A program made the translations under genes and the position numbers. Below the pieces are notes generated by a model. That model searched no databases, was not told the origin of the DNA, and saw only the letters and a program-made list of their open reading frames with translations. This document shows positions 5,642 through 57,661 of a stretch of DNA of 64,000 nucleotides, in pieces (position 1 is the first letter of the stretch; every line of letters begins with the position of its first letter). This stretch comes from Microvirga sp. 17 mud 1-3 (GTDB lineage: Bacteria; Pseudomonadota; Alphaproteobacteria; Rhizobiales; Beijerinckiaceae), in contig NZ_CP029481.1 in NCBI RefSeq assembly GCF_003151255.1, positions 62,001 to 126,000 of the forward strand, given 5' to 3'.

Positions 5642-6630
5642 GGCCGGGCCTCCGGAAGCTGCGGAATCACGCTCACCGGCAGGCCGAGGGGCAGGCTCGC
5701 CCCATCGAGGGGCTGGGCCTCGAGACGGAACACGAGCTTGGCCCGTTCCTGCTCGCTGAAGATGACCGGCGGGGTGTATTCCGCTGCGTCCGACATGAAG
5801 CTGATCCGTGCCTTGAGAGATGAGGCGCAGCTATCGCAGGAGATGCCCACGACCTGCCCGAGCGAGAAGGTGTTGAGCCGCGGCTCCGGCACGTAGAAGC
5901 GGATGCGCCGGTTCGCCGGGGGCAGGAGCGCCAGAACGGGCTGTCCGGCATTCACGGTCTCGCCGGCCCGGAAATACACGTCCTGAACCTGCGCACCCGC
6001 GGAAGCGTACACCCGGCGCTTGGCGAGCCGGGTCTCAGCCTGGCCGAGCGCCGCCTCGGTGGCGGTCGCCGCCGCCTTCGCAGCCTCGATCTCGGCCGAA
6101 CGGCCGGCGATCTGGCCCGCCTCGATCTGCCGCCGCACCTCCTGCAGGGCGGCCTTGTCCCGTTCGAAGGCGGTCTTCGCCTGATCGAACTGCGCCTTGG
6201 CCGATATCCCGCGATTGTAGAGGGTCTGCTGGCGGTTGAGCTCCGCCTGGGAGAGGTCGAGCTGCGCGGCGGCGCGCTCTTCCTGGGCCTGCAGGACGGC
6301 GATCTCCTCCGGGCGCTGGAGCGAGGCCTGCAGGTTGGCGAGCTGCGCCTTCGCCTGTTCCCAGCGCGCCTTCGCCTCGTCGCGCTGGGCCGTCTGGAGA
6401 GAGGAATCGAGCGTGAAGAGAACCTGACCTTCCGTCACTTGGTCTCCTTCCCGAACGGCCAGGCTGTCGATCCGGCCACCCTCCTCGGGTGCCATGAAGA
6501 CCAGGTAGCCCTCCACATAGCCCTGGTAGCGCTCGGGCCCGTCGCCCCTGTGCCCGTAATACCAGAAGGCCGCTCCGGCTCCGGACAGGGCCGCCAGGAC
6601 GATCAACGCCACCAGGATCCGCCGGGTCAT
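5638..6630 (-). CDS. HlyD/YbhG-type membrane-fusion protein
   Basis: A 330-residue periplasmic adaptor that would link the permease to an outer-membrane channel. It begins MTRRILVALIVLAALSGAG, an N-terminal membrane anchor or signal. A biotinyl-lipoyl segment follows near residues 40-75, then a long alpha-helical hairpin (about 75-205) rich in Ala, Gln and Glu, and then a second lipoyl half and a beta-barrel region. Its length is close to that of E. coli YbhG. The ATG at 6630 overlaps the TetR stop by four bases. The same frame stays open upstream to 7461, but that part is the shadow of the TetR gene. Confidence 0.9.
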   Translation of the reverse strand: MTRRILVALIVLAALSGAGAAFWYYGHRGDGPERYQGYVEGYLVFMAPEEGGRIDSLAVREGDQVTEGQVLFTLDSSLQTAQRDEAKARWEQAKAQLANLQASLQRPEEIAVLQAQEERAAAQLDLSQAELNRQQTLYNRGISAKAQFDQAKTAFERDKAALQEVRRQIEAGQIAGRSAEIEAAKAAATATEAALGQAETRLAKRRVYASAGAQVQDVYFRAGETVNAGQPVLALLPPANRRIRFYVPEPRLNTFSLGQVVGISCDSCASSLKARISFMSDAAEYTPPVIFSEQERAKLVFRLEAQPLDGASLPLGLPVSVIPQLPEARP

Positions 6631-42689: not shown

Positions 42690-43122
42690 CCTGTCCTCCC
42701 CGAATGCACAAAGTATAAATTTGAGATCGGTCGCGCAGGAACGCAATGACCTTTGTCAGCCGAACCTTTGTTTCATCGACCCGATCATCATTGTGCGCCA
42801 CCAGACGGACTGAGAGGCCAAGGCAATCCGCGCTCCATCGTCCTTTCCAGATCAGAAAATTAACACGTTGCGGTGGGCCGCTTGATTTCCAGGTGTATTT
42901 ATTTAACATGGTAATTATAACTTCACCGTCACATGCGGCTTCAATGGCAGCTTCGATCTTTTCCGAGTCCCCAGGCCACGAATCTCAATCGCGAATACCG
43001 GGCGCAGCGGCTGCTTGCGCCTTCTCGCAGTAACCGGCCACTGAGGCCGTCCGACCTTCATCCATCTCGCAAAACAGAATGTCGACCCGGCTGAGCAGCG
43101 GGCCGATAAAAGGACTGAACGC
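42690..43122. other. Regulatory gap upstream of the hpa genes, AT-rich in part
   Basis: This 433-bp gap holds no supported gene; a 95-codon frame at 42746-43033 has no family resemblance. Around 42857-42920 the composition turns AT-rich (AAAATTAACACGTT, GTATTTATTTAACATGG, GTAATTATAAC), unlike its surroundings. TAACACGTT at 42861-42869 is the reverse complement of AACGTGTTA at 45748-45756 in the promoter gap of the transporter operon. The region probably contains the promoter and operators for hpaGHI. Confidence 0.45.
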
Positions 43123-43992
43123 ATGCTCTCTCCCAAATTCGTGAGCTATTCTGCCGAAGGCCGTCATGGATACGGCTTGGTCGTTGATGAAGGGATCATC
43201 GACCTGTCCAGCCGTTTCTCCACGCAATGGCCCACCCTGCAGGAGGTGGTTGCCGACAATGCCTTCGACCGGCTTGTGCAGGCTCGGGCAGGGTTGGCGC
43301 CTGATCTCCCGTTCGACGCGATTCGGTATAAGATTCCGCTGGCGGCACCCGAAAAGATCATCTGTGTCGGCGTGAATTTCCCCGACCGTAATGCGGAGTA
43401 CAAGGACGGCAAGGACGCTCCGCCGAACCCCTCTCTGTTTCCCAGATTTCCGCGATCGTTCACCGGCCATGACCGCCCGCTGATCCGTCCGCCGGAGAGC
43501 GAGCAGCTCGATTATGAAGGCGAGATTGCCATTGTGATCGGCAAGGCAGGACGCCGGATCGCCGAACGCGATGCGCTCGACCATGTTGCGGCGCTGACGC
43601 TCGCAAACGAGGGAACGATTCGCGACTGGGTGCGGCACGCGAAGTTCAACGTCACACAGGGCAAGAACTTCGACCGCTCCGGCGCAATCGGGCCATGGCT
43701 TGTGCCGTTCACCGACGAAGCCCAGATCGCCGATATTGCGCTGACGACGCGGGTGAACGGCGAATTGCGCCAGAGTGACCGGACCAGCCGCATGATTTTC
43801 CCGTTTCGGAAGATCATCAGCTATATCTCGACCTTCACGACCCTCGTTCCGGGTGACGTCCTCATCACCGGAACGCCGACCGGTGCCGGTGCCCGTCACG
43901 ACCCGCCGCTCTGGCTGAAGCCCGGCGATGTCGTCGAGGTCGAGGCCGAGGGCATCGGCCTTCTTCGCAACACCATCGCCGACGAGGTCTGA
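43123..43992 (+). CDS. hpaG: Fumarylacetoacetate hydrolase-family decarboxylase/isomerase (HpaG-like)
   Basis: A 289-residue enzyme with one FAH domain (about residues 75-285). Metal-site residues are in QLDYEGEIAIVIGKAG, and the C-terminal family block is VLITGTPTGAGARHDPPLWLKPGDVVEVEAEGIG. In homoprotocatechuate breakdown HpaG decarboxylates 5-oxopent-3-ene-1,2,5-tricarboxylate. E. coli HpaG has two such domains (about 430 residues) while this has one. The role is inferred from the hydratase and aldolase genes that follow within a few bases. A generic acylpyruvase-like activity is the alternative. Confidence 0.78.
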   Translation: MLSPKFVSYSAEGRHGYGLVVDEGIIDLSSRFSTQWPTLQEVVADNAFDRLVQARAGLAPDLPFDAIRYKIPLAAPEKIICVGVNFPDRNAEYKDGKDAPPNPSLFPRFPRSFTGHDRPLIRPPESEQLDYEGEIAIVIGKAGRRIAERDALDHVAALTLANEGTIRDWVRHAKFNVTQGKNFDRSGAIGPWLVPFTDEAQIADIALTTRVNGELRQSDRTSRMIFPFRKIISYISTFTTLVPGDVLITGTPTGAGARHDPPLWLKPGDVVEVEAEGIGLLRNTIADEV

Positions 43993-43995
43993 CCG

Positions 43996-44799
43996 ATGCT
44001 GGCCCCTGACGACATTGCTGCCGCTGCCCTTAGCCTCGACGAGGCGGAGCGGACCCGCCAGCAGATCGGTTTGATGTCGCTGCGGTTCCCGCAGATGACC
44101 ATGGACGATGCCTATGCGGTTCAAGGCGCTTGGGTGAAGCGCAAGCTCGCGGCCGGACGCACGGTGATCGGCTGGAAGATCGGGCTCACCTCGAAGGCCA
44201 TGCAATATGCGTTGAACATCAGCACGCCCGATTCCGGCGTGCTGCTCGACGACATGCGCTTCGAGGACGGCGACAGCATTCCGAAGGATCGCTTCATCCA
44301 GCCGCGGATCGAAGCTGAGATCGCGTTTGTGATGAAAGCACCCCTCAAGGGGCCCAATGTCACTGTCTTCGATGTGCTGAGCGCAACTGATTATATCACG
44401 CCGGCGCTTGAGATCCTGGATACGCGCATCCTGCGCGTTGATCCGCAGACCAAGCAGGCGCGTACCATCGTCGACACGATTGCCGACAACGCAGCCAATG
44501 CCGGAATCGTTGTCGGAGGGCGTGCCATGCGCCCCGATCAAGTGGATCTACGTTGGGTCGGCGCCATCGTGTCGCGCAACGGACAGGTCGAGGAAACGGG
44601 GCTAGGAGCCGGTGTGCTAAACCATCCGGCGCGCGGTATCGCCTGGCTGGCCAACCGGCTCGCGCTCTATGGCGAGCGGATCGAAGCTGGCCAAGTCGTC
44701 CTGGCAGGCTCTTTCATCCGCCCGGTAGAGGCACGCCATGGCGACACCATTGTCGGCGATTACGGCCCGCTGGGCACCGTCAGCTGCTATTTCGAGTGA
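43996..44799 (+). CDS. hpaH: 2-oxo-hepta-3-ene-1,7-dioate hydratase
   Basis: A 267-residue enzyme, the same length as E. coli HpaH. The motifs [42 protein letters not shown], and [17 protein letters not shown] are conserved across the hydratase/4-oxalocrotonate decarboxylase family. It hydrates the product of HpaG to 2,4-dihydroxy-hept-2-ene-1,7-dioate. The ATG lies three bases after the hpaG stop, and the aldolase gene starts eight bases after its own stop, so the three form one operon. Confidence 0.88.
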
Positions 44800-44807
44800 G
44801 ACTATCC

Positions 44808-45611
44808 ATGCCTGCTCCTACAAACCCCTTCAAGGCGGCGCTCAAGGCGGGGCGCACCCAGATTGGCCTGTGGCTTGCCCTGGCCAGCCCCAATGTGGCC
44901 GAAGTCTGCGCCGGCTCGGGCTATGACTGGCTCCTGATTGATGCCGAACACGGTCCGAACGACATCCCTCTGCTGGCAGCGCAGCTCCAGGCGGTCGCAG
45001 CGTCGGCAAGTCATCCGGTCGTCCGGGTGCCAGTTGGCGAGGCCTGGATCATCAAGCAGGTTCTCGATATCGGCGCTCAGACGCTCCTGATCCCCATGGT
45101 GGAAACCGCCGAGCAGGCGAGGGCGCTCGTGCGGGCGACCCGCTACGCCCCGGACGGCATGCGCGGTGTCGGAGCCGCGCTGGCGCGTGCCTCGGCTTAC
45201 AACCGCATCCCGGACTATCTTCAGACTGCGAACGAGCAGGTCTGCTTGCTTTTGCAGGTGGAAAGTCGGGCAGGGCTGGCGGCAATCGAGGAGATCGCAG
45301 CTGTCGACGGTGTCGATGGCATTTTCATCGGCCCGGCAGATCTCGCGGCCGACATGGGTTTCCTGGGCAACCCGGGAGCCGCAGAGGTTCAGGCAACAGT
45401 TCGGGAAGGCTTGCAACGCATCATCGACACCGGACGCGCACCAGGAATTCTGACGGCCGATCAGGACTTGGCGAAAAGCTATGTCGACATGGGCGCAAGC
45501 TTCGTGGCGATCGGTTCGGATGTCGGTCTGCTGGCCGGAAGCACGACCCGATTGCTTGCGCAGTTCCGCTCCGGCTCGCAGGCACAATCAACGCGCGGAT
45601 CCGTCTATTGA
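44808..45611 (+). CDS. hpaI: HpcH/HpaI-family class II aldolase
   Basis: A 267-residue metal-dependent aldolase that splits 4-hydroxy-2-oxoheptanedioate into pyruvate and succinic semialdehyde. Family motifs are [13 protein letters not shown] (active-site His), [32 protein letters not shown] (metal Glu) and [14 protein letters not shown] (metal Asp). The length equals that of E. coli HpaI. It is the third gene of the hpaGHI operon and is followed by a hairpin. The succinic semialdehyde could be taken up by the dehydrogenase encoded at 34.0-35.4 kb. Confidence 0.88.
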
Positions 45612-45621
45612 AGATTGTTTC

Positions 45622-45648
45622 GCCCGCCAAGTGAGTGTCAGCGGGCGG
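45622..45648 (+). terminator. Hairpin after hpaI
   Basis: CGCCCGC (45622-45628) and GCGGGCG (45642-45648) are perfect 7-bp arms with a 13-base loop, 11 bp after the hpaI stop. No T-tract follows. It may separate hpaGHI transcription from the transporter operon. Confidence 0.45.
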
Positions 45649-45730
45649 CTGCCTGGTCTGCCTCTAACCTGTTGAGTTCATGAATCAAAATAGCCTTGAA
45701 AACCATCCGCCGACGACAGAATCCGGAATA

Positions 45731-45756
45731 TAATTAACTTGATAATTAACGTGTTA
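45731..45756. promoter_or_regulatory. AT-rich repeat and shared 9-mer before the amino acid transporter operon
   Basis: TAATTAAC occurs twice in direct orientation, 12 bp apart (45731-45738 and 45743-45750). The second copy runs into AACGTGTTA (45748-45756), within the near-palindrome TAAC-GT-GTTA. The same 9-mer, inverted, lies in the gap upstream of hpaG. The site ends about 75 bp before the binding-protein start. It is a candidate operator for the HpaF-HpaR fusion protein encoded at the end of this operon. Confidence 0.4.
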
Positions 45757-45830
45757 TGTGCCATCTCGATCGCGCTGTGCAGGCATGTTGTGCTTGCACC
45801 TGCTTCGTGACAGACGCTGGGAGGACTAGG

Positions 45831-46868
45831 ATGCTCAAATACCTGCGCAACAAATGGATGCTGGCGGCGGGCTGCCTGATGGCTGCGACGACAGTCGCTT
45901 CGGCCGAGAGTGGCGCCACGCAGAAGTCCATCAAGGACCGTGGCATGCTCAATTGCGGCGTGTCGAGCGGCGTACAAACCGGAATGAGCACGCTCGACAG
46001 CGACGCGAAGTGGTCCGGGTTCGAAGTCGATTTCTGCCGCGCAGTTGCGGCCGCCGTTCTGGGCGATCCGGAGAAGATCAAGTTCGTACCTCTCGAGATC
46101 AAGACCGCCTTCGCGACGCTTCAGTCGGGCGGGATCGACCTTCTGGCCAGGACCGCGACCCACACCTTCGTCCGGGACATCGAGCTGAATGTCGAGTGGC
46201 CCGGGGTGTACCTCTATGACAGCCAGGGCTTCCTGGCCAAGAAGTCGCTTGGCGTGAAGAGCGCGAAGGAACTCGACGGCGCCTCCATCTGCGTCTCGGC
46301 AGGCTCGAACTACGAGCTGAACTTGGCCGACTACTTCCGGAAAAACGGTCTCAAGTTCAAGCCGGTGGCTGCCAACACCCGGGACCAGAATGAAAAGAAC
46401 CTCGCGGCTGGCCGCTGTGACGTTTACGCCAACGTCCTGAGCGCACTCGCAGGGGCGGTCTCGAAGCTGGGCAACCCGGATGATTGGGTCGTTCTGCCGG
46501 AACTGATCTCGATGGAGCCGATCGGTCCTGTCGTGCGCAAGGACGACAGCCGCTTTCGCGACATCGTAGCCTGGACCCTCAATGGCCTGATCGCAGCCGA
46601 AGAGCTTGGCATCACAAGAGCCAATGTCGACGAGATGAAGGCGAGCTCCACATCGCCGGAAGTCCAGCGTCTTCTCGGCGTGACGGGCGACTTCGGGGTC
46701 AAGCTCGGGCTCGACAACAGCTGGGCCTATAATGCGATCAAGACCGTCGGCAATTACGGCGAGATGTTCGAGCGCAATCTGGGCGACAAAAGCCCGATCA
46801 AGCTCGATCGCGGTCTCAACAACCTCTGGAACAACAAGGGACTGATGTCCTCACCATTGATCCGCTAA
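45831..46868 (+). CDS. aapJ: AapJ-type amino acid ABC transporter binding protein
   Basis: A 345-residue periplasmic solute-binding protein of family 3, close to the usual AapJ length. The signal peptide ends near TTVASAESG. The typical pattern follows: LNCGVSSGVQTGMSTLDSDAKWSGFEVDFCRAVAAAVLGDP, then FATLQSGGIDLLARTATHTFVRD and later LGVTGDFGVKLGLDNSWAYNAIKTVGNYGEMFERNLG. Rhizobial Aap takes up a broad range of L-amino acids. The ATG at 45831 follows GGGAGGACTAGG; an upstream in-frame start lacks a signal-peptide-like sequence. Confidence 0.88.
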   Translation: MLKYLRNKWMLAAGCLMAATTVASAESGATQKSIKDRGMLNCGVSSGVQTGMSTLDSDAKWSGFEVDFCRAVAAAVLGDPEKIKFVPLEIKTAFATLQSGGIDLLARTATHTFVRDIELNVEWPGVYLYDSQGFLAKKSLGVKSAKELDGASICVSAGSNYELNLADYFRKNGLKFKPVAANTRDQNEKNLAAGRCDVYANVLSALAGAVSKLGNPDDWVVLPELISMEPIGPVVRKDDSRFRDIVAWTLNGLIAAEELGITRANVDEMKASSTSPEVQRLLGVTGDFGVKLGLDNSWAYNAIKTVGNYGEMFERNLGDKSPIKLDRGLNNLWNNKGLMSSPLIR

Positions 46869-46883
46869 CAAGTCCTGCATTTG

Positions 46884-46907
46884 AGGCCGGCGCTCTGGCG
46901 CCGGCCT
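46884..46907 (+). terminator. Hairpin between aapJ and aapQ
   Basis: AGGCCGGCGC-TCTG-GCGCCGGCCT is a perfect 10-bp stem with a four-base loop, 15 bp after the aapJ stop and 29 bp before aapQ. It has no T-tract. Such hairpins after binding-protein genes stabilise the upstream message or attenuate the permease genes. Confidence 0.55.
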
Positions 46908-46936
46908 ACCGATCCTGACCCTCGACAAGCTGAACG

Positions 46937-48121
46937 ATGACCACCTCATATGCAGTTCAATCGCCGCCGCGAGCCGTATCGGTCGGACGTCGGCGCAAGA
47001 TAGGCTGGCTCTATCAAAGCCTGCTCGTGGCGGCTCTCGCCCTGCTGGCATACGTCGCGATCGGCAACCTGCAGGACAATCTCGCAGCGCGAGGCCTTCG
47101 GATCGGTTTCGACTTCCTAAGGCAGGAGGCTGGCTTCGAGATTGCCTTCCACCTGATCCCCTACTCATCCAGCGACACCTACTGGTGCGTCTTCCTGATC
47201 GGCATTACCAACACGCTGTTGGTCACGGTTCTGGCCATCATATTCTCGACCATTCTGGGATTTGCCGTCGGGATCGCTCAGCTCTCGGTCAATTGGACCC
47301 TGTCACGCTCTGCACGCATCTATGTCGAGCTCGTGCGGAACCTGCCCCAACTGCTGCACATTCTCATCTGGTACAACGTCGCGCTCCGCGCCCTTCCGGC
47401 ACCCAAACAGGCGCATGCCATCGGCGATGTGGCGTATCTCTCCAACCGCGGGATCTTTCTCCCAGCCGTGACGACGGACAGGCCCGGCCTGCTGGCGCTT
47501 GCCATTCTGCTCGCCATGGCCGCTGCCCTCGCGCTGTTTCGCAGTCTGACTGTATACTCGGAGCGTACGGGCCGCCAAGTCAGCGCCTGGCTGCCTGCTT
47601 TGGCGATCTTGGCGCTTCTGCCGGTCGCGGTCGTAGGTCTGACAGGCACGCAGATCGACCTGTCATTTCCCCAGCTGCGAGGCTTCAACTTCGTCGGTGG
47701 CTGGGTGCTCGTGCCGGAGCTGACAGCCCTCGTGCTCGCAATGGCAATCTACAATGCCGCGTTCATCGCCGAGTTGGTGCGCGCGAGCATCGAGTCCGTG
47801 AACAAGGGACAGCGCGAAGCGGCGGCCGCAATCGGTTTCGGCTGGTGGCAGACCCTGCGCTTCATCGTGATCCCTCAAGCGATCCGAGTGCTGCTGCCTC
47901 CGCTGTCGAACCAATATCTCAACATTCTCAAAGGCTCCTCGCTCGCGGTGGCGATTGGATACCCGGACCTCGTAGGCGTCTTCACCGGCATTAGCATCAA
48001 CCAGACGGGACGTGCGATCGAAATCGTCGCCATGACGATGGCCGTCTACCTCGCCATCAGTCTCCTGATCGGCGCGCTGATCAATCTGTTCAACCACATG
48101 ACCAGGATCATCGAGCGGTGA
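46937..48121 (+). CDS. aapQ: AapQ-type amino acid ABC transporter permease
   Basis: A 394-residue inner-membrane permease with about eight membrane segments. The AapQ hallmark AGFEIAFHLIPYSSSDTYWC precedes the membrane core. The EAA loop that contacts the ATPase is VNKGQREAAAAIGFGWWQTLRFIVIPQAIR near residue 290. The long middle insert with extra helices distinguishes AapQ/BztB from ordinary GlnP permeases. Its last codons overlap the aapM GTG start. Confidence 0.9.
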   Translation: MTTSYAVQSPPRAVSVGRRRKIGWLYQSLLVAALALLAYVAIGNLQDNLAARGLRIGFDFLRQEAGFEIAFHLIPYSSSDTYWCVFLIGITNTLLVTVLAIIFSTILGFAVGIAQLSVNWTLSRSARIYVELVRNLPQLLHILIWYNVALRALPAPKQAHAIGDVAYLSNRGIFLPAVTTDRPGLLALAILLAMAAALALFRSLTVYSERTGRQVSAWLPALAILALLPVAVVGLTGTQIDLSFPQLRGFNFVGGWVLVPELTALVLAMAIYNAAFIAELVRASIESVNKGQREAAAAIGFGWWQTLRFIVIPQAIRVLLPPLSNQYLNILKGSSLAVAIGYPDLVGVFTGISINQTGRAIEIVAMTMAVYLAISLLIGALINLFNHMTRIIER

Positions 48122-49239
48122 ACGATACAGCCACGATACTGGCCGCCAACAGCAGGCCGCCTGCCTCCCCCGCCTCGGCAGGATCGGCGCCCCGGCTTCT
48201 GAACTGGCTGCGCCGGCGCCTCTTTGCATCATGGCGCGATGCCCTCGTTTCGATGGCCGTCATCACGCTATTGGCTGCCATTGCCTGGTCCATTGTTCCC
48301 TGGGCTCTGATCGACGCGACCTGGCGCGGCGCCAGTCGCAACGATTGCGCACCGGACGGTGCATGCTGGGCATTCGTCACGGCAAAAGCGTCACAGTTCA
48401 TCTACGGCTTTTATCCACCCACCGAGCGCTGGCGACCGGATATTGTGTTTGCCTTGCTCATTGTCGGGCTCGTGTGGCTGATGGTGCCTCGGATCCCCAA
48501 GAAGGGTTATGCCTGGCTCTTCATGATCGTCGTCCTCCCGCTTGCAGCATTCGCCTTGCTGCGCGGTGGGTTTGCCGGTCTGCCGTTCGTGCCGAGCGAT
48601 CAATGGGGCGGCCTTCTGCTTACCATGATACTTGCGGTCTCAGGGATCACCTTCTCGCTCCCCATCGGCGTTCTCTTCGCCCTCGGGCGACGCAGCCGCA
48701 TGCCCCTGATCCGCTGGTTCTGCATCGGCTTCATCGAGTTCTGTCGCGGCGTTCCGTTCCTCACGGTGCTTTTCATGGCAATCGTGATGTTGCCGTTCTT
48801 CCTGCCTTCCGGAACGAAGCCAGATCCGCTCGCGCTTGCCGTCGTCGGCATCATCTTCTACGAGGCGGCCTATATGGCCGAGGTCGTCCGCGGCGGGCTC
48901 CAGGCACTCCCGAAAGGCCAATACGAAGCCGCGATGTCGATCGGCTTCGGCTATTGGCGGACGATGATCTACATCATCCTGCCTCAGGCACTCCGGAAGG
49001 TTGTCCCGGGTGTCGTGAACACGACCATCTCGCTGCTGAAGAATACGACTTTGGTGATGGTGGTGGGCCTCTTCGACCTGCTCAACATTGTCTCGGCCGG
49101 CGTCTCCGACCCATTATGGGCCGGCTCACAGGCCGAAGGCTACTTCATTGTCGGCCTGGTCTTCTGGCTCATGAGCTTTGGCCTCTCCTGCTACAGCCGC
49201 ACAATCGAGGCCGGCTTCGCACGGGCCGACCGCTCCTAA
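48118..49239 (+). CDS. aapM: AapM-type amino acid ABC transporter permease
   Basis: A 373-residue partner permease. It starts at GTG overlapping the aapQ stop by four bases. The N-terminal half carries three or four membrane segments, and the conserved permease core has the EAA loop LPKGQYEAAMSIGFGYWRTMIYIILPQALRK near residue 265. It forms the heterodimeric membrane channel with AapQ and is followed by the ATPase gene after 21 bp. Confidence 0.9.
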   Translation: MNDTATILAANSRPPASPASAGSAPRLLNWLRRRLFASWRDALVSMAVITLLAAIAWSIVPWALIDATWRGASRNDCAPDGACWAFVTAKASQFIYGFYPPTERWRPDIVFALLIVGLVWLMVPRIPKKGYAWLFMIVVLPLAAFALLRGGFAGLPFVPSDQWGGLLLTMILAVSGITFSLPIGVLFALGRRSRMPLIRWFCIGFIEFCRGVPFLTVLFMAIVMLPFFLPSGTKPDPLALAVVGIIFYEAAYMAEVVRGGLQALPKGQYEAAMSIGFGYWRTMIYIILPQALRKVVPGVVNTTISLLKNTTLVMVVGLFDLLNIVSAGVSDPLWAGSQAEGYFIVGLVFWLMSFGLSCYSRTIEAGFARADRS

Positions 49240-49260
49240 ACGCATCCGGGTAGTTAGAAC

Positions 49261-49998
49261 ATGGATCAGACCCTCATCCGGCTCACAGACGTCAATAAAT
49301 GGTACTCACAGTTCCATGTTCTCAGAGACATCAACCTCGATGTCCGGCAAGGCGAACGGATCGTCGTCTGTGGCCCGTCGGGATCCGGCAAATCGACCAT
49401 GATCCGCTGCATTAATGGACTTGAAGAATACGAGCAGGGGACCATCACGGTCGGAGGCGAGCGCGTCTCTCAGGATGACGACAATATCGAGAAGATCCGC
49501 CAGCGGGTCGGCATGGTCTTCCAGAGCTTCAACCTGTTCCCCCATCTGTCGATCCTCGACAACCTGACGCTGGGGCCCATCAAGCTGAAACGTGTGCCCC
49601 GCGCTCAAGCCGAGGCACGTGCGATGGAGTTGCTGGAACGCGTCCATATCGGACATCAGGCACGGAAGTTCCCCAATCAGCTCTCGGGTGGGCAGCAGCA
49701 GCGCGTCGCAATCGCCCGCGCTCTCGCCATGGAGCCGGACGTCATGCTGTTCGACGAGCCGACTTCGGCACTCGACCCGGAGATGGTTAAAGAGGTGCTC
49801 GACGTCATGATCGAACTGGCAAATACCGGCATGACCATGATTTGCGTCACGCACGAAATGGGCTTTGCGCGGGCGGTGGCCGACCGAGTCGTTTTCATGG
49901 CTGATGGAGCCATCGCGGAGATCGGCGCACCGGACACGTTCTTCTCGAACCCATGCACTGAACGAGCTCGCCAGTTCATCCAGCAGGTCATTCACTAG
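49261..49998 (+). CDS. aapP: AapP-type amino acid ABC transporter ATPase
   Basis: A 245-residue ATPase of the polar amino acid family. Walker A is [13 protein letters not shown], the Q-loop region is [18 protein letters not shown], the signature is [16 protein letters not shown], Walker B is [15 protein letters not shown], and the switch is [14 protein letters not shown]. It completes the transporter. The aminotransferase gene follows after 41 bp in the same direction, which ties uptake to transamination. Confidence 0.93.
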
Positions 49999-50039
49999 TC
50001 AAATCCTAGCAGCCGCTAGCCCGTCTTCCGGAGCCTCCT

Positions 50040-51200
50040 ATGACTAACGCGTCCCCAACAGTCTACCCCTATCGCCTGCGCATCCCCGGCCCGATTTCGG
50101 TTCCGGAGCGGGTCCGCCAGGCCAACGCAAAGCCCGTAGTTAACCACCGTGGCGCCGAAATGCGGGCTATTCTGGGCGAAATTCAACGCTTGATCAAACC
50201 GCTGTTCGGAACGCAGGCGCCTGTGCTAACGTTCGGAAGCTCCGGCACAGGCGTCATGGAGGCAAGTCTGGTCAATGTTCTGGCGCCCGGCGAGAAGGTT
50301 CTTGCACTTGTGCACGGCCAGTTCGGCGAGCGCTACGCTCAGATCGCACGCGCTCTCGGAGCGGAGGTCGATGTGATCGAAAGCGAGTGGGGCCAGGTCC
50401 CGGATCCGCAACAGGTCGCGGCCAGCCTTGACAAGGCTCAGTACCGGGCGGTTGTCACCGTCCATAATGAGAGCTCAACCGGCGCCGTGACGGATCTCGC
50501 AGGAATCGGAGCGCTCCTTCGGGATCGGGACACGTTGTTCCTCGTCGATTCCATCAGCGGGCTCGCCGGTATGGAGCTGCGGCAGGACGAGTGGGGCGTT
50601 GATATCGCTGTTACCGGATCTCAGAAGGCCCTGATGTGCCCGCCCGGACTCGGCTTCGCCAGCGTGAGCGACAAGGCCCGCAAGGTCATCGACCGTGACG
50701 ACAGGTGTTCGCGATTCTATTTCGATATGCGCAAGGCTCTTGCCGGCGTCGACAACAACGAAACTGCCTTTACGTGCCCGGTCTCCCTGCTCTTTGGGCT
50801 GCATGAAGCGCTGACGATGATCCATGAAGAAGGGCTCCCGCAGGTGTTCGCTCGGCATAAGCGCCTGTCGGACGCTCTGCGGGCTGGCTGTGTCGCACTC
50901 GGCCTGCCGGCATTCGGCGATCAGGCTGCTGCGTCCCGTACCGTTGTGGTCGCCTCAGTGCCTGAACCTCTTACCGGCGGTGCAATCGTCAAGCATATGT
51001 ATGAGAATTATAATACTGTGATTGCCGGTGCCCGGAATAAGCTGAGCGGAAAAGTCATCCGCATCGGCACTATGGGGCAGATCAGCGAAGCCGATATCCT
51101 GACCGACCTGCATTATCTCGAGCGCACGCTGACCGCGCTTGGCCATGATGTTCCCACGCCCGGCTGCGGTGTTGCCGCCGCTATGGCCTCACTCCGCTAG
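50040..51200 (+). CDS. Class V aminotransferase (alanine/serine-glyoxylate type)
   Basis: A 386-residue fold-type I PLP enzyme. The cofactor lysine is Lys196 in VTGSQKALMCPPGLGF, the ring-nitrogen aspartate is Asp170 in LFLVDSISGLAGMEL, and the phosphate loop is LTFGSSGTGVMEASLVN. The family covers alanine-, serine- and aspartate-glyoxylate aminotransferases and related enzymes. It lies between the amino acid transporter and the HpaF-HpaR fusion gene, so it may remove nitrogen from an imported compound before ring cleavage. That link is inference. Confidence 0.88.
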   Translation: MTNASPTVYPYRLRIPGPISVPERVRQANAKPVVNHRGAEMRAILGEIQRLIKPLFGTQAPVLTFGSSGTGVMEASLVNVLAPGEKVLALVHGQFGERYAQIARALGAEVDVIESEWGQVPDPQQVAASLDKAQYRAVVTVHNESSTGAVTDLAGIGALLRDRDTLFLVDSISGLAGMELRQDEWGVDIAVTGSQKALMCPPGLGFASVSDKARKVIDRDDRCSRFYFDMRKALAGVDNNETAFTCPVSLLFGLHEALTMIHEEGLPQVFARHKRLSDALRAGCVALGLPAFGDQAAASRTVVVASVPEPLTGGAIVKHMYENYNTVIAGARNKLSGKVIRIGTMGQISEADILTDLHYLERTLTALGHDVPTPGCGVAAAMASLR

Positions 51201-51220: not shown

Positions 51221-52210
51221 ATGCCTCATATCTGGGTTGAATATTCAAGCAATCTCGAAGACAGCATCGACGTTTCCGCTCTGCTCAAGACAACGCAGGA
51301 CGCGCTGATCGGCGATGGGACGATCTTTCCCTTTGCAGGTGCGCGCACGCGCGGCGTCCCCGTCCAAAACTACCTTATCGTGGACGGCCATGCGGATAAT
51401 TCATTCGTACATGTTCTGCTGCGCATCGCAGTTGGGCGGTCGCAAGAAGACAGGAAAGCTGCGGCGAGCCGTGTATTCGAGGCAGTCAAGGATTTCCTCG
51501 CGCCAATCACTGCCTCGCGCCCCCTCGGTATATCTGTGCAGATGGAGGAGGCCGACGAAGCGACGAATTTCAAGACAAGCAATTACCGCGAGTACTTGAA
51601 GCAGCGTGGCATCCCCGAGAAGGCGTCGTCCAAACCCGAACGTCCGGCGAAAACTCCGGGTCGGTCTGCGCCACTTCGCCAAGCCGCAGGAGCTTCCATC
51701 TCCGAGCGTGTATCCGCCGAGCCGAGGCAAAAGACCTTGGATGCCGACCACTCATCGACACGGGTACGGATACGGCACTTCTCGAAGTCGCTGCCCATGT
51801 CTCTGCTCCGAGCGCGCGAAGCAGTCATGCGCCACTTCCGGGCAAGCCTCCGCCGCTTCGAGATAACCGAGCAACAGTGGCGCGTTCTGCGCGCCCTGAC
51901 GTCAGTCGAAACCATTGAGGTCACGACCCTGGCCGACGTGACATTTCTCCTCCCGCCTAGTTTGTCGCGGATCCTCAAGGACCTCGACGAGCGAGGGCTC
52001 ATCGTGCGCCGGACATCCTCCTCGGACATGCGTCGTGGGATCATTTCGATCTCGCCGCAAGGCCTTGAGCTGATTGAGCGGGCAGGAGCCGAGTCGGAGG
52101 TGATCTATCGTGAGATCACGGGACGATATGGGCCGGAGCGCCTCGCCGAACTTCAGAACCTGCTTCAGCAACTCGAAGAGTGTCTGGACGGCCCTGAAAT
52201 CGCGGGCTGA
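51221..52210 (+). CDS. Fusion of 5-carboxymethyl-2-hydroxymuconate isomerase (HpaF) and MarR-type repressor (HpaR)
   Basis: A 329-residue protein with two full domains. Residues 1-128 match HpaF/CHMI: the tautomerase proline directly after Met1 (MPHIWVEYSSN), TIFPFAGARTRG, SFVHVLLRIAVGRS and TNFKTSNY. Residues 129-182 are a Pro/Arg/Ser/Ala-rich linker. Residues 183-329 match HpaR, the homoprotocatechuate-operon MarR repressor: MSLLRAREAVMRHFRASLRRFEITEQQWRVLRAL, then LPPSLSRILKDLDERGLIVRR and the wing SSSDMRRGIISISPQG. The frame is continuous, with no sign of a frameshift. Met193 could serve as an internal start for a free repressor. The gene starts 20 bp after the aminotransferase stop. An enzyme tethered to its own pathway repressor is unusual. 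Confidence 0.87.
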   Translation: MPHIWVEYSSNLEDSIDVSALLKTTQDALIGDGTIFPFAGARTRGVPVQNYLIVDGHADNSFVHVLLRIAVGRSQEDRKAAASRVFEAVKDFLAPITASRPLGISVQMEEADEATNFKTSNYREYLKQRGIPEKASSKPERPAKTPGRSAPLRQAAGASISERVSAEPRQKTLDADHSSTRVRIRHFSKSLPMSLLRAREAVMRHFRASLRRFEITEQQWRVLRALTSVETIEVTTLADVTFLLPPSLSRILKDLDERGLIVRRTSSSDMRRGIISISPQGLELIERAGAESEVIYREITGRYGPERLAELQNLLQQLEECLDGPEIAG

Positions 52211-52416: not shown

Positions 52417-53550
52417 TCAAGCAATAGATGTTACGCTCCGGAAGCGTAGTAAGCCTAAGGCAAAGAACAAGCCGCCAATCAACGCGACGATCAGGAATTC
52501 CGGCCAGACCACATCAAATCCGGCCCCACGATAAAGAATAGCCTGTGCGAAGGATACGAAATGCACAGTAGGTGAAATTTGCAAGACTGCAGCGAGCCAC
52601 GAGGGCATGCTCTCAAGAGGTGTGCCGCTGCCGGACAGCATGGCCAATGGCAGATAGACAAGGAGATAGAGAAGGCCGAGCTGCGGCATCGATCGCGCAA
52701 CCGTCCCTAGGAATACTCCTATGGCTGTGGCGAAGAACAGGTAAATCCCAACCCCGACCAAGAATAGGGGAATCGATCCTGCAATTGGCACGCGAAGTAT
52801 GGCCTCGACAACGACATAGAGTGAGAAGAACGCCGATACGATAATGATGAAGCCGTTTGCCCAAATCTTCGACATCGCAATCTCGAAAGGGGTTAATGGC
52901 ATAGCGAGGAGATGATCGAGCGTGCCGTGCTCGCGTTCGCGAACGATTGCCGCTCCCGCCAGGATGATCGCGAGCATCGTGACGTTGTTGATGATGCCCA
53001 TGATGCTGGTGAACCAGCCTGTTTCGGCATTCGGATTGAACGCAAGACTCACAACGAGATCCACCTGCGAGGGATTTTTCCTATCGATATGTGATAGAAA
53101 GGTATTGATCTCGTTGGTGATGATTTGCTGCGCATAGCCGGAACCTAGTCCGGCCTGTACCATCGCGGTCGCGTCCACGTTGATCTGTATCTCCGGCTGG
53201 CGCCCCGAGACGATGTCGGCTTCGAACCGTGGTGGAATATCGATCACGAATGTATACCTGCCCGCATTCATGAGCGGCACTACGTCCTGTTCGGCGATCA
53301 GCTGTGGCGCCTGAAAATATGGCAGGAGAAACGCGTGCTGGATGCGGCGTGATAGGTTCGATCTATCCTCGTCGACGATCGCCACGGAGGCATTGTGAAC
53401 CTCCTGGGAGCTGCTTTGGGCCTGTGCCATGATGGCAAGGGAGAAGCTGTAAATGACGAGGAAAAGCAGTACGATATCGTGTCGGAAGCTTCGTAACTCC
53501 TTCGTCCCAAGCCAGAAGATGTTCGAGAGCTTCTGCATGGTTGCAATCAC
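52417..53550 (-). CDS. yhhJ: ABC-2 permease, YhhJ-like
   Basis: A 377-residue inner-membrane permease with one N-terminal segment (DIVLLFLVIYSFSLAIMAQAQ), a periplasmic loop of about 140 residues and five C-terminal segments. The motif REREHGTLDHLLAMPLTPFEIAMSK is the ABC-2 exporter signature. The GTG start follows the RbbA stop by five bases, after AGGAGCG; an ATG 12 bases later is possible. It ends the HlyD-RbbA-YhhJ operon, the same gene order as E. coli yhiI-rbbA-yhhJ. The 206-bp gap to the convergent fusion gene holds no clear feature. Confidence 0.9.
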   Translation of the reverse strand: MIATMQKLSNIFWLGTKELRSFRHDIVLLFLVIYSFSLAIMAQAQSSSQEVHNASVAIVDEDRSNLSRRIQHAFLLPYFQAPQLIAEQDVVPLMNAGRYTFVIDIPPRFEADIVSGRQPEIQINVDATAMVQAGLGSGYAQQIITNEINTFLSHIDRKNPSQVDLVVSLAFNPNAETGWFTSIMGIINNVTMLAIILAGAAIVREREHGTLDHLLAMPLTPFEIAMSKIWANGFIIIVSAFFSLYVVVEAILRVPIAGSIPLFLVGVGIYLFFATAIGVFLGTVARSMPQLGLLYLLVYLPLAMLSGSGTPLESMPSWLAAVLQISPTVHFVSFAQAILYRGAGFDVVWPEFLIVALIGGLFFALGLLRFRSVTSIA

Positions 53551-53555
53551 CAGCG

Positions 53556-56315
53556 CTAACGCTCCTGCTTTCGGAGCAGCAGCAAGCTGAGCACCGTCAG
53601 GGACGGTACGAACACAATAAGAGCAACGATGTCGCTTGAAAGGTCGCGAAACCCAAGCCCTTTGGTGAAAGTCCCGACGCTGATCGGAAGATAGTAGCTC
53701 ATTGGGAAAAGTCGCCCCATGATCTGGGCCATGCCTGTCAGGGACGAGACCGGAACGAGCATGCCTGCAAACATTGTTGCAGGAAGCACCGTCAGAATTG
53801 CGGTTCCGAAAAGTGCTGCGATCTGCGTCCGTGCAAAGGTGGAAACCAGCATACCGTACGCCGTTGTCGTTATGACGTAGATGAAGGTCGCCAATAGCAG
53901 GGTTGGGAAGCTCCCTTTGAGTGGGACTCTGAATACCAACTGCGCAATCGCAAACATGAGCGCAAAGTTGATCATCGCTAATCCGACATAAGGTGCCTGC
54001 TTGCCGAGGAGGAATTCAAGGCGCGTCAGCGGCGTGACGTATAGATTCGTGATCGAGCCGAGCTCCTTCTCCCGCACGACGGCAAGCGCCATGAGAATGG
54101 CCGGGAAGAGCGCAAGCTGCATCGCAAGCTGAGCCGGCACCATTGCGTAGATGCTATCGAAGTCCTGATTGTACTTAAAGCGAAGCTGGACGAGGGCCGG
54201 AGCCGGTGTGAGAGGCTGACCTGCCCTTGTTAGAAGGTCGGCGAGATAGAGCTGATGGAAGCCTTGTAGGTATCCGCGGATCGTTTGGGCAATGAAGGGC
54301 CGCGCTCCATCGACCCATGCTGCCACAGATGTGGGCTGGTCGCGTATGACGTTTCGCCCAAAGCCAGGCGGGATTACGATGGCAGCGTCGATTTCCCCGC
54401 GCGCGAGCCTCCTCTCAAGAGCCGTATAGTTCTCCAGGGGAGGTTTCTCGATGAAGTAGGTTGAGCCGCGAAGCGCCTCCAGGTAGGCGCGACTCTCGTG
54501 GCTTTGATCATAGTCTAGGACTGCGAACGTCAACCCGTTCACGTCCGTAGAGATGCCAAGGCCGAAGACGAGCATCAGGAACGTCGTGCCGAGTATAGCA
54601 AAGCCAAGCCTGATACGGTCGCGTATTAATTCGATAGTCTCGCGGATAGTGCAGGCCGTAAGACGCTCGAGGCTGAAACCCGATTGAATGCGTGTTCTTG
54701 CCTTTGGAGGGCGTACACGAGAAGGGTCTCTTGGAGCCTGTTGCACACTGAAGCCTGGTTCCTCGCTGCCGGCGCGGGCTTGTTCTGCGTCCTCAAGGTA
54801 TCCGATGAAGGCATCTTCGAGGGTCTCGGCGTTCCGTGCCTGCATCAATCCATTTGGTGTATCGGTTGCCAGCACACGACCCGAATCCATCAGGGAGATG
54901 CGATCGCAGCGCTCGGCTTCATTCATGAAGTGAGTGGAGACAAAAATCGTTATGCCGCGATTCCGCGCCAAATCAGTCAACAGTCTCCAGAATTGGTCCC
55001 TCGCAATAGGATCAACGCCGGACGTCGGTTCGTCGAGAATGAGAAGATCGGGCTCGTGAACGACGGCAACCGCCAGTGAAAGCCGCTGACGGATGCCAAG
55101 GGGCAAGGCTTGAGCCGGTTCGTCCACATAGTTGGCGAGGCCGAAATCCTTGACGAGCTTGGCAATGCGTGCATTCGCCTTTTGAGGCGACAGGTGGAAT
55201 AGCCGCGCGTGAAGATCGAGATTCTGGCGGACTGTCAGCTCGGTATAGAGCGAGAATGCCTGCGACATATACCCGACGCGCTTACGCGTTTCGAGATCGT
55301 TTGCATCGAGTGGTCGCCCGAACAACCGTACCTCGCCCTCGCTGGGCGGCAGCAATCCGGTGAGCATCTTCATGGTGGTTGTCTTGCCGCAACCGTTCGA
55401 GCCGACAAATCCGAAGATTTCCCCTCGCCTGATCGTAAAGCTGGCATGGTCGACAGCCACGAAATCCCCGAACCGGCGAGTCAGACCTTCCGCCATGATG
55501 ACCGGCTCCCCGTCGGCTTCTGAGCGTCGAGGCAAATAGAATTCCTGATAGCCGGTACGCTCGCGCTCCGGGAGCAGGGCAACGAAAGTCTCTTCGACAG
55601 TTCTCGCTCCGGTCGCGCGTTCGAGTTCTGCCGGTGATCCCGTGGCCACGATCCTGCCTGCATTGACGGCGGCCAACCAGTCAAACCGCTCGGCCTCCTC
55701 CATATAGGCCGTGGCGACAAGAACTGAGAGAGCGGGATTCCGAGCGCGGATGCGCTCGATGAGTCTCCAAAAATGGCGCCGCGACAGCGGGTCGACACCG
55801 GTCGTCGGCTCGTCGAGGATCAGGAGGTCCGGTTCGTGAATCAAAGAGCAGCAGAGGCCGAGCTTCTGCTTCATTCCTCCCGATAGCTTTTTTGCCGCCC
55901 GGTCGGCAAACGGCATAAGCCCTGTGCTTGCCAGAAGCTCCGCCATTCGCGCATCGCGCTCGTTATGTGGCTCTCCGAACAACCGCCCAAAGAACTCGAT
56001 ATTTTCTCGTACGGTAAGGTCCGGATAGAGATTCCTGCCCAGGCCTTGTGGCATGTAGGCGATGCAAGGACAGAGGGCAGAACGGACCTTTGGGTCAGCC
56101 ATGTCCTTACCCAGGACATATGCCCGACCTGTTTGAATCTGCCGGGCGCCGGCGATGATGGCGAGCAGAGATGACTTTCCAACTCCATCCGGCCCGATCA
56201 ATCCGGCTAGGCGGCCAGAGGGCACTGCGAGCGTGACATCGTCAAGCGCGACAGCCTTGCCGTAGCGAAGGGTAATATTCTCAAGAACTGCGACTGCTCC
56301 ATCGCCCATCATCAT
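53556..56315 (-). CDS. rbbA: RbbA-type fused ABC transporter (ATPase-ATPase-permease)
   Basis: A 919-residue protein, close to the 911 of E. coli RbbA. ATPase 1 has GPDGVGKSSLL, LSGGMKQKLGL and LLILDEPTTGVD (residues ~10-240). ATPase 2 has GSNGCGKTTTMKM and LLILDEPTSGVD (about 270-495). The C-terminal permease domain (about 545-919) has six membrane segments and REKELGSITNLYVTPLTRLEFLLGKQ. E. coli RbbA was reported to associate with ribosomes, yet the domain structure is an exporter. The ATG cluster overlaps the HlyD stop. Base composition is lower in GC than in the first 40 kb. Confidence 0.92.
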   Translation of the reverse strand: MMMGDGAVAVLENITLRYGKAVALDDVTLAVPSGRLAGLIGPDGVGKSSLLAIIAGARQIQTGRAYVLGKDMADPKVRSALCPCIAYMPQGLGRNLYPDLTVRENIEFFGRLFGEPHNERDARMAELLASTGLMPFADRAAKKLSGGMKQKLGLCCSLIHEPDLLILDEPTTGVDPLSRRHFWRLIERIRARNPALSVLVATAYMEEAERFDWLAAVNAGRIVATGSPAELERATGARTVEETFVALLPERERTGYQEFYLPRRSEADGEPVIMAEGLTRRFGDFVAVDHASFTIRRGEIFGFVGSNGCGKTTTMKMLTGLLPPSEGEVRLFGRPLDANDLETRKRVGYMSQAFSLYTELTVRQNLDLHARLFHLSPQKANARIAKLVKDFGLANYVDEPAQALPLGIRQRLSLAVAVVHEPDLLILDEPTSGVDPIARDQFWRLLTDLARNRGITIFVSTHFMNEAERCDRISLMDSGRVLATDTPNGLMQARNAETLEDAFIGYLEDAEQARAGSEEPGFSVQQAPRDPSRVRPPKARTRIQSGFSLERLTACTIRETIELIRDRIRLGFAILGTTFLMLVFGLGISTDVNGLTFAVLDYDQSHESRAYLEALRGSTYFIEKPPLENYTALERRLARGEIDAAIVIPPGFGRNVIRDQPTSVAAWVDGARPFIAQTIRGYLQGFHQLYLADLLTRAGQPLTPAPALVQLRFKYNQDFDSIYAMVPAQLAMQLALFPAILMALAVVREKELGSITNLYVTPLTRLEFLLGKQAPYVGLAMINFALMFAIAQLVFRVPLKGSFPTLLLATFIYVITTTAYGMLVSTFARTQIAALFGTAILTVLPATMFAGMLVPVSSLTGMAQIMGRLFPMSYYLPISVGTFTKGLGFRDLSSDIVALIVFVPSLTVLSLLLLRKQER

Positions 56316-57661
56316 GGTGTTGCGGGCCCTGGTTCTAGGCTAGGCGGCCACTTTGCATCCGGATCGGTACGCACGTAGGCCATTCCGGGCAGGCCGCTTC
56401 TCACGCTTACCTCGCGGCCCTTGAGCCGATCCGGGTCGATCCGGACCCGGATTCGAAACATCAACTTGTCGCGCTCGCTCTTCGTCTCGACGGTCTTGGG
56501 GGTGAACTGGGCTTCGCTAGAAACATAGACGACATTGGCCGGTATGACGCGACCGGGATAGGCGTCCAGGACGATGCGAGCTTCACTCCCGAACTTAAGT
56601 CGTCCGGCCTCCGCAGTCGGGAGATAGATGTCCATATAGACGTATGAAGCGTCGAGCATCGTGAAGACCTTGCCGCCGGCCGGCAGAACTTCCCCGACAG
56701 TGGCAAGGCGGTATTCAATGGGGCCGTCACGTGGCGCGATCAGTGTATTATCCGCGATCATGACCTTGTAGTACTCGACATTGTAAGTAGCAGCTTCGCT
56801 CGATTGTTCTGCTTGCCCAACCCTGGCGGTGGCCGCATCACGCGATGCGATTGCCCCATCCGCATTGTGTCGGGCGGCGATCAGCGCCTGTTCCGCTGCG
56901 CTCACCCTGGCGACCGCAGCGCTTTTTGCCGCCAAGGCGGCATCCAAAGCCTGCTGTCGTTGATCGAGCAGTTCGATGGTGGCGATTCCTTTCGACACGA
57001 GCGCTTTGGTGCGATCATATTCCTGTTGAGCCAGTTTCGTCTGTGTCAGCTGCTGTTGCAGGTTCGCATTCGTTTCATCCAGGATCCGTTGTGTCTGAAG
57101 TGCAGCTGCTTGTGTGCTCAACACTAGGCTTTTCTGCTGGACGAGGTTCTGTCGCGCTTCATCCACGGCTCGCTGCATTTGAAGGGCCTGGGCTTCGGCC
57201 TGCTTCAACTGAGCCTGAAGGTCCTGAGTATCCATGATTGCGACGACCTGGCCGGCTTTCACCAAGTCGCCCTGCTCGGCATAGAGGCGTAGGACGCGTC
57301 CCGCGAACTTCGTATCAATGTTGATCTCGTCTGCTTCCAACCTGCCGTTTCCGGACGCGAAGCCAGGTGGAAGCGTCGGCCTATGCTGGAGCCACCAATA
57401 GTACCCAACCCCGGCCATAGCGAGGAGTGCAAGAAGCGCGACGATCCACCGGAGGACTGTATTTTTCCTGATAGGCTCCGACCGCCTGGCCGGAAGCCAC
57501 GATGGCTTGTCGGGCGGGGTATAGCCGCCTTGGGGGGCGATCTGTCCTTGATGCGCCCCGGAGGCGTCAGCCGCAGGCAGGGGAGGAATCCTCTCCGGCA
57601 TTTCTGCCTTCACGGGGGAATCGGATGGGCCCGGCTCCGTGTGCCGATCGGACGCTGCCAT
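56312..57661 (-). CDS. HlyD-type membrane-fusion protein (YhiI-like)
   Basis: A 449-residue periplasmic adaptor. An unusual Pro-rich cytoplasmic N-terminus of about 65 residues precedes the membrane anchor VLRWIVALLALLAMAGVGYYW. The first lipoyl half follows, then an Ala/Gln-rich helical hairpin (about 145-300) and the second lipoyl/beta-barrel half (IAPRDGPIEYRLATVGEVLPAGGKVFTML). It is the first gene of the exporter operon. An FNR/FixK-like box lies 77 bp upstream of its start. Confidence 0.9.
   Translation of the reverse strand: MAASDRHTEPGPSDSPVKAEMPERIPPLPAADASGAHQGQIAPQGGYTPPDKPSWLPARRSEPIRKNTVLRWIVALLALLAMAGVGYYWWLQHRPTLPPGFASGNGRLEADEINIDTKFAGRVLRLYAEQGDLVKAGQVVAIMDTQDLQAQLKQAEAQALQMQRAVDEARQNLVQQKSLVLSTQAAALQTQRILDETNANLQQQLTQTKLAQQEYDRTKALVSKGIATIELLDQRQQALDAALAAKSAAVARVSAAEQALIAARHNADGAIASRDAATARVGQAEQSSEAATYNVEYYKVMIADNTLIAPRDGPIEYRLATVGEVLPAGGKVFTMLDASYVYMDIYLPTAEAGRLKFGSEARIVLDAYPGRVIPANVVYVSSEAQFTPKTVETKSERDKLMFRIRVRIDPDRLKGREVSVRSGLPGMAYVRTDPDAKWPPSLEPGPATP

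Follow-up and report, generated by a model that had tools for sequence, protein, structure and literature searches.

The gene at 51221..52210 (+) in the 64-kb stretch of DNA that we analysed (the window) is a single uninterrupted frame of 329 aa, and it joins an HpaF-like isomerase (CHMI) to an HpaR-like repressor in a genuine-looking hpaF-hpaR fusion. Judging from its DNA and from that of its relatives, we regard this fusion as real and young, and as probably functional. The best explanation of the data, and a fairly likely one, is that adjacent genes of one operon fused recently to give one chain, in which an active-looking isomerase is tied by a flexible linker to a working HpaR that represses its own operon.

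Domains of the fused frame

The fused gene has the following parts.

51221..52210 (+): hpaF-hpaR fusion gene (open frame; holds the genome's sole CHMI and its sole HpaR above cut-off)
51224..51592 (+): CHMI/HpaF domain, residues 2-124 (Pfam PF02962, 132 bits)
51596..51787 (+): linker, residues 126-189, composed of the HpaF tail, the former intergenic spacer and the former HpaR N-terminus (alignment, pLDDT, codon score)
51788..52174 (+): HpaR (MarR winged-helix) domain, residues 190-318 (TIGR02337; nearest solved chain by sequence is 7el2 HpaR)

The original prediction, of a continuous frame with a complete CHMI/HpaF domain that keeps its tautomerase proline and a complete HpaR-like MarR domain, was confirmed. 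The Pfam model of CHMI (PF02962) matched residues 2-124 with 132 bits (cut-off 26.5, E 2e-38), and the MarR_2/MarR models matched residues 215-271. In NCBIfam, the HpaR model TIGR02337 covered residues 190-318 with 144.1 bits, above its equivalog cut-off of 121.2. The CHMI half missed the PRK15031 equivalog cut-off (77.8 against 215 bits), as did its unfused relative L040 (81.1 bits). Alignment to 1otg placed Pro2, Arg42 and Arg73 of the fusion at Pro1, Arg40 and Arg71 of E. coli CHMI, residues reported to have catalytic roles (PMC11641302), although for Pro2 to serve as the N-terminal catalytic proline Met1 would have to be removed. Among solved structures, HpaR (7el2/7el3) and the MarR proteins 5aip and 2fbi are nearest in sequence to residues 188-322. 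Both halves are probably active. HpaR is here part of a longer chain and not a stand-alone protein, barring internal initiation.

The genome that carries the fusion is one contig of 4,403,107 bases and is 99.99% complete. No second CHMI was found in these 4.40 Mb, and no second HpaR above cut-off, the other 11 of the 12 matches to the HpaR model reaching 43 bits at most.

Origin of the fusion from neighbouring genes

To find relatives, the fusion protein was compared with 298 family genomes and with the GTDB contig collection (80 of at least 561 confirmed relatives). The nearest among the matches listed were G286 (loci L003/L153), Rhizobiales bacterium AFS012373 (L040) and G318 (L120/L152), the last of the same genus as the fusion genome. 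At L003, L040 and L120 both halves are present as neighbouring separate genes, 80-84% identical to the halves of the fusion. A five-way DNA alignment located the two signals that separate the genes in the relatives.

51632..51634 (+): codon 138, AAA, where four relatives have the hpaF stop TGA
51698..51700 (+): codon 160, ATC, at the place of the inferred hpaR ATG

The TGA stop is present in all four relatives aligned (L003, L040, L120 and L041), and the inferred hpaR ATG is kept in 3/3 relatives with an adjoining hpaR (L003, L040, L120); in L040 this ATG is the first possible start in its frame. The spacer between hpaF and hpaR measures 59, 59 and 58 nt in L003, L040 and L120, respectively, against 63 nt, or 21 codons, in the window. 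Therefore, hpaF and hpaR share one frame only in the window, and their frames differ in all three relatives. The same alignment identifies the linker as the old spacer plus the old N-terminus of HpaR. The fourth relative, L041 (a Brucellaceae MAG, 3597-5693), has an hpaF of the fusion's type without an adjacent hpaR, and matches to inverted hpaI and hpaH come next.

The ancestor would thus have had an hpaF of 137 aa followed, after a spacer of about 59 nt, by hpaR. In the lineage of the fusion the hpaF stop would have become a sense codon, the spacer would have grown to 63 nt and so brought hpaR into the frame of hpaF, and the hpaR ATG would have changed to ATC.

These differences also bear on whether the fusion could be an artefact of sequencing or assembly, with two genes in the real genome. 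Among the 414 single substitutions possible in codons 138-183, 13 make a stop, so a single miscalled base might mask a stop codon if HpaR starts at TTG173. However, the genome is a single, nearly complete contig, and to get from the arrangement of the relatives to that of the window takes two base changes at the stop, a third at the start and a change of length. Because stop, start and spacer all differ, a single sequencing error is insufficient, and we consider an artefact very improbable. A stop codon in the linker (51605-51770), which the original prediction had named as evidence against a fusion, does not occur in the sequence as given, where the frame is open throughout 51221-52210.

The linker

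The linker spans about 52 residues from the old C-terminus of HpaF (residue 137) to the start of the HpaR match at residue 190, or about 65 when counted from the end of the CHMI match. An AlphaFold2 model of the fusion, built from an alignment of 17 sequences, has low overall confidence (pLDDT 65, pTM 0.40), though its secondary structure fits both domains; residues 135-198 fall below a pLDDT of 50. The model suggests that the linker is probably disordered and acts as a flexible tether.

Codon usage points to the same origin as the alignment. Codons 138-183 (46 codons) scored -0.24, against a mean of 0.26 (SD 0.13) for 703 coding windows from 18 genes of the window. Only 0.3% of these coding windows score below the linker, and 30% of shuffled linkers score at least as high. 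As its score is no better than that of shuffled DNA, the linker appears to be former non-coding DNA. That it is open is unremarkable, since 29% of shuffles of codons 138-183 are open too. The fusion is nevertheless more than a chance open frame, because the relatives show that the stop was lost, the start was lost and the spacer came into frame. An open frame by chance only was ruled out, as the five-way DNA alignment calls for three changes relative to the relatives.

Possible internal starts

The frame might still yield two products. In that reading, translation starting within the frame, at TTG173 or weakly also at ATC160, would release a free HpaR that regulates, with the fused form serving mainly as isomerase. 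Two signals are relevant.

51688..51692 (+): AGGAG, the old hpaR Shine-Dalgarno sequence, retained (-6.6)
51737..51739 (+): in-frame TTG, codon 173, a possible internal start, with GAGG at 51724-51727 (-5.9)

ATC160 lies behind the retained AGGAG, whose Shine-Dalgarno energy of -6.6 equals that of the ATG start of L003, and initiation at TTG173 would give an HpaR of 157 aa that still contains all of the conserved core. As a start codon, however, ATC is very weak, and the hpaR ATG kept in the three relatives with an adjoining hpaR has been lost here. When the region was shuffled 1000 times, 193 of the shuffles contained a TTG, GTG or ATG with an equally good site, and 54 of 417 internal NTG codons of the 18 window genes have such a site; TTG173 is thus not special. 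The original prediction had proposed an internal start at Met193, which proved a poor candidate: its Shine-Dalgarno energy is -1.0, weaker than that of TTG173 or ATC160, and it was rejected. Overall, we judge two products from one frame to be a genuine rival but rather unlikely, and a single fused chain to be the better reading.

Rarity of the CHMI-MarR architecture

The original prediction called for a search for the same order of CHMI and MarR domains. Searches with PF02962 found CHMI in 8 of 48 genomes at the level of the genus, 76 of 397 at order level, 35 of 385 at class level and 97 of 398 at phylum level; these sets overlap, and a hand count gave 190 distinct genomes with CHMI. No second CHMI-MarR fusion was found among these 190. 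Besides that of the window (353 aa as listed), four of the CHMI frames listed were at least 270 aa long (in G566, G658, G543 and G437), and in each the surplus length was open sequence upstream of CHMI with a normal CHMI end. The same check of long frames among the matches listed from the 298 family genomes gave no further fusion.

The retrieved loci gave a similar picture. Among their 89 CHMI matches, the frame runs on past CHMI in just the three copies of the window and six Achromobacter loci. No CHMI was found upstream of HpaR-like genes in 115 locus records besides the window (some places being represented twice); in three of the 115 an ATG lies more than 80 residues upstream in open frame, and the added sequence bears no likeness to CHMI by eye. 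None of 164 plasmid records had a place covering 80% of the fusion protein, and PADLOC gave no match. A widespread domain architecture was thus rejected for the genomes and loci covered.

Among the open-access papers listed, no CHMI-MarR or HpaR fusion was found in titles and abstract starts, nor, by title, a paper on structures 7el2/7el3. For the CHMI-MarR pair this agrees with the original prediction, which knew of no described protein of this kind; enzyme-repressor fusions in general are known, PutA being one.

The operon and its pathway

The fusion is the last gene in an order of hpaG-like, hpaH, hpaI, four importer genes, class V aminotransferase and hpaF-hpaR.

43123..43992 (+): HpaG-like FAH-family protein, below the HpaG cut-offs (profile search)
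43996..44799 (+): hpaH, 2-oxo-hept-4-ene-1,7-dioate hydratase (TIGR02312, 451.3 bits, cut-off 351.5)
44808..45611 (+): hpaI, 4-hydroxy-2-oxoheptanedioate aldolase, start inferred (TIGR02311, 384.6 bits, cut-off 368.8)
45831..49998 (+): amino-acid-type ABC importer, with binding protein (start taken from relatives), two permeases and ATPase (Pfam/NCBIfam, relatives)
50040..51200 (+): class V aminotransferase, BhcA-like but below cut-off, directly upstream of the fusion (Pfam/NCBIfam)

G318 has the same operon order as the window, and G286 and L040 have the same neighbourhood but without hpaI at that place: in the window (44808-45611) and in G318 the gene separates hpaH from the importer, and it is absent there in G286 (L153) and L040. 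After the fusion, at 52417-57661 (-), stands what is by the look of its translations an ABC-2 export cluster (a permease, a 919-aa ATPase/permease and an HlyD-like protein); at this place G318 and G286 have a succinate-semialdehyde dehydrogenase gene.

The original prediction placed the two proteins in homoprotocatechuate catabolism. Fusion of an HpaF-like isomerase with an HpaR-like repressor stands, but the assignment to that pathway has to be loosened. In the genome, no HpaE (best match 438 against 638 bits) and no VOC-type HpaD (27 against 321 bits) scored above cut-off, and there was no LigB domain match that would indicate a LigB-type dioxygenase. Because the genome lacks a recognisable HpaD or HpaE, the pathway is better described as homoprotocatechuate-like than as canonical, and by similarity only its lower half is present. 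Since the operon holds an amino-acid importer and an aminotransferase, the substrate may be an amino acid. Our guess is that this amino acid is transaminated to a CHM/OPET-like acid, which HpaF, HpaG, HpaH and HpaI would then degrade. In the conserved operon at 43123-51200, lower homoprotocatechuate-type enzymes thus stand together with an amino-acid ABC importer and a BhcA-like aminotransferase, and the operon may serve to degrade an amino acid.

Operator-like sites and probable autoregulation

Three putative operators lie in two upstream regions of the operon.

42903..42914 (+): putative operator A, TTAACATGGTAA, upstream of hpaG (conserved in L040, L152 and L153)
45734..45745 (+): putative operator B1, TTAACTTGATAA, upstream of the solute-binding-protein gene (conserved in relatives, with one mismatch in L152)
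45746..45757 (+): operator-like B2, TTAACGTGTTAT, directly adjoining B1 (alignment, pattern search)

Upstream of hpaG and of the importer, the window and three relatives share TTAACATGNTAA and TAATTAACTTGATAATTAACNTGTTAT-like sequences, and the flanking DNA aligns poorly. Yersinia HpaR is reported to protect two 15-bp sites with the pattern TTAA-XXXX-TTAA at the hpaG1 promoter (PMC7180172). The sites at 42903, 45734 and 45746 are TTAA-N4-TTAA-like, each one arm base off the Yersinia sites. The window contains two occurrences of the pattern TTANCNNGNTAA, where 0.06 would be expected, and TTAACNTGNTAA has two exact occurrences in the whole 4.40-Mb genome, precisely at the hpaG and importer upstream sites. 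This rarity proves little, because the patterns were written from those very sites and the reversed control pattern also occurs twice in the genome. It is therefore position and conservation that carry the operator argument.

With conserved TTAA-N4-type sites in front of both hpaG and the importer genes, the fused protein is a candidate repressor of its own operon, and the sequence indicates that it is probably autogenous. The HpaR part would bind the putative TTAA-N4-TTAA-like operators and repress the whole operon, including its own gene. HpaR proteins studied elsewhere are reported to be released by pathway intermediates (PMC12718150), and a pathway compound bound by the HpaR part could likewise act as inducer and release repression here. 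In the best supported reading, the HpaR of the fusion is a ligand-released autogenous repressor that is now tied to the isomerase and so present in a fixed 1:1 ratio with it.

Constraint on both halves

Both domains appear to be under purifying selection, with key residues kept. Between the window and L040, NG86 dN/dS was 0.113/1.33 for CHMI and 0.102/1.14 for HpaR; in each of the four pairs computed, dN was much smaller than dS for both halves, in a range like that of seven other operon genes (hpaI left out), although the ratios are rough because dS is near or above 1 in pairs with the window. Window-specific amino-acid changes fell on 10 of 125 CHMI sites, compared to 90 of 2287 in those seven genes (Fisher p 0.036); the comparison with L152-specific changes gave p 0.47. 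For HpaR the count was 10 of 147 (p 0.13, and p 0.049 against L152-specific changes). All four p values are uncorrected, and we take the excess as a faint sign of relaxed or shifted constraint.

That faint sign is one of the points in favour of a neutral or decaying fusion, in an operon little used and with one half already impaired. The fusion was seen in one genome only, so there is no second fused genome to show selection on the fused state, and the window has no succinate-semialdehyde dehydrogenase gene adjacent to the fusion, whereas such a gene comes after hpaR in G318 and G286. A weak isomerase might also be tolerable, because CHM is reported to isomerise slowly by itself (PMC12718150). 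Against decay, the operon genes of the window align with those of the relatives over nearly their whole length, the catalytic residues and operator-like sites are kept, HpaR still scores above its equivalog cut-off, and dN is well below dS. We therefore regard decay as unlikely and keep to a fusion with two working halves.

Possible assembly and coupling of enzyme and repressor

The main effect of the fusion would be a fixed 1:1 ratio of enzyme to repressor, with HpaR carried on trimers of HpaF. MarR proteins are dimeric. CHMI is reported to be trimeric, and its C-termini lie about 47 Å from one another and well away from the active-site opening (PMC11641302); catalysis would therefore not have to suffer from a tether at the C-terminus. 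Because CHMI is trimeric and MarR proteins are dimeric, a closed assembly of six chains with three repressor dimers is possible. Such an (HpaF-HpaR)6, in which three repressor dimers would link two trimers, could grip the three operator-like sites in the two upstream regions, 2.8 kb apart, at once, and repression would then be set by isomerase assembly and substrate. We think this improbable; if true, it would be a new way for a pathway enzyme to control its own genes, seen soon after the loss of a stop codon. The original prediction had likewise suggested that substrate occupancy or oligomeric state might act directly on transcription; this is an inference.

A special case of the best explanation would be a trigger enzyme as in PutA, in which the isomerase domain senses flux and alters how the repressor joined to it binds DNA. 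Against this reading, MarR proteins generally have a ligand pocket of their own, and a long, probably disordered and young linker is ill-suited to precise allostery. In its favour, the layout resembles in principle that of PutA, an autogenous repressor-enzyme (PMC5293562), and simulations are reported to tie the C-terminal region of CHMI to Pro1 (PMC11641302). On balance a trigger enzyme seems quite doubtful, and we prefer a repressor released by its own ligand and tethered to the isomerase.

Comparison with known systems

The fusion offers a clean snapshot of how a PutA-like enzyme-repressor fusion could begin: adjacent genes on the same strand, loss of a stop, conversion of an in-frame spacer into a linker and loss of the second start. 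As there are unfused relatives with the same operon, few putative operators and a small protein, its consequences are directly testable. If the coupling is real, a MarR-tautomerase type would be added to the known autogenous catabolic enzymes.

PutA has an N-terminal ribbon-helix-helix domain and is switched by redox state and membrane association. In PutA, one chain unites a catabolic enzyme with an autogenous repressor of its own regulon (PMC5293562). Our protein has an enzyme and a repressor domain on one chain, with operator-like sites at its own operon, and may act in a PutA-like way. Its domains are unrelated to those of trifunctional PutA (proline dehydrogenase, P5C dehydrogenase and ribbon-helix-helix repressor), and the fusion has a C-terminal MarR domain on a young, probably disordered linker.

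The hpa operons of Yersinia and E. coli W have the same HpaF and HpaR domains and a similar type of operator, but as separate proteins. Canonical hpa operons are described as carrying hpaD and hpaE (PMC7180172), whereas the fusion genome has neither above cut-off. HpaR (7el2/7el3) and the MarR proteins 5aip and 2fbi are chains of 141-146 aa without an enzyme domain. The three syntenic loci (L003, L040, L120) have the same gene order as the fusion, with hpaR directly after hpaF, but each gene has its own stop and start.

The CHMI-HpaG1 fusions of Achromobacter (L070, L072, L073, L074, L077 and L078) extend the C-terminus of CHMI in frame by a pathway partner, as here. At these loci CHMI begins at 8001 (3658 in L078), and a separate HpaR-like gene lies about 2.6 kb upstream. 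In contrast to our fusion, the partner is an HpaG-N-type enzyme of the FAH family (by domain search in L073 and L077, and by like sequence in the others) and not a repressor, and the arrangement is common to all six loci.
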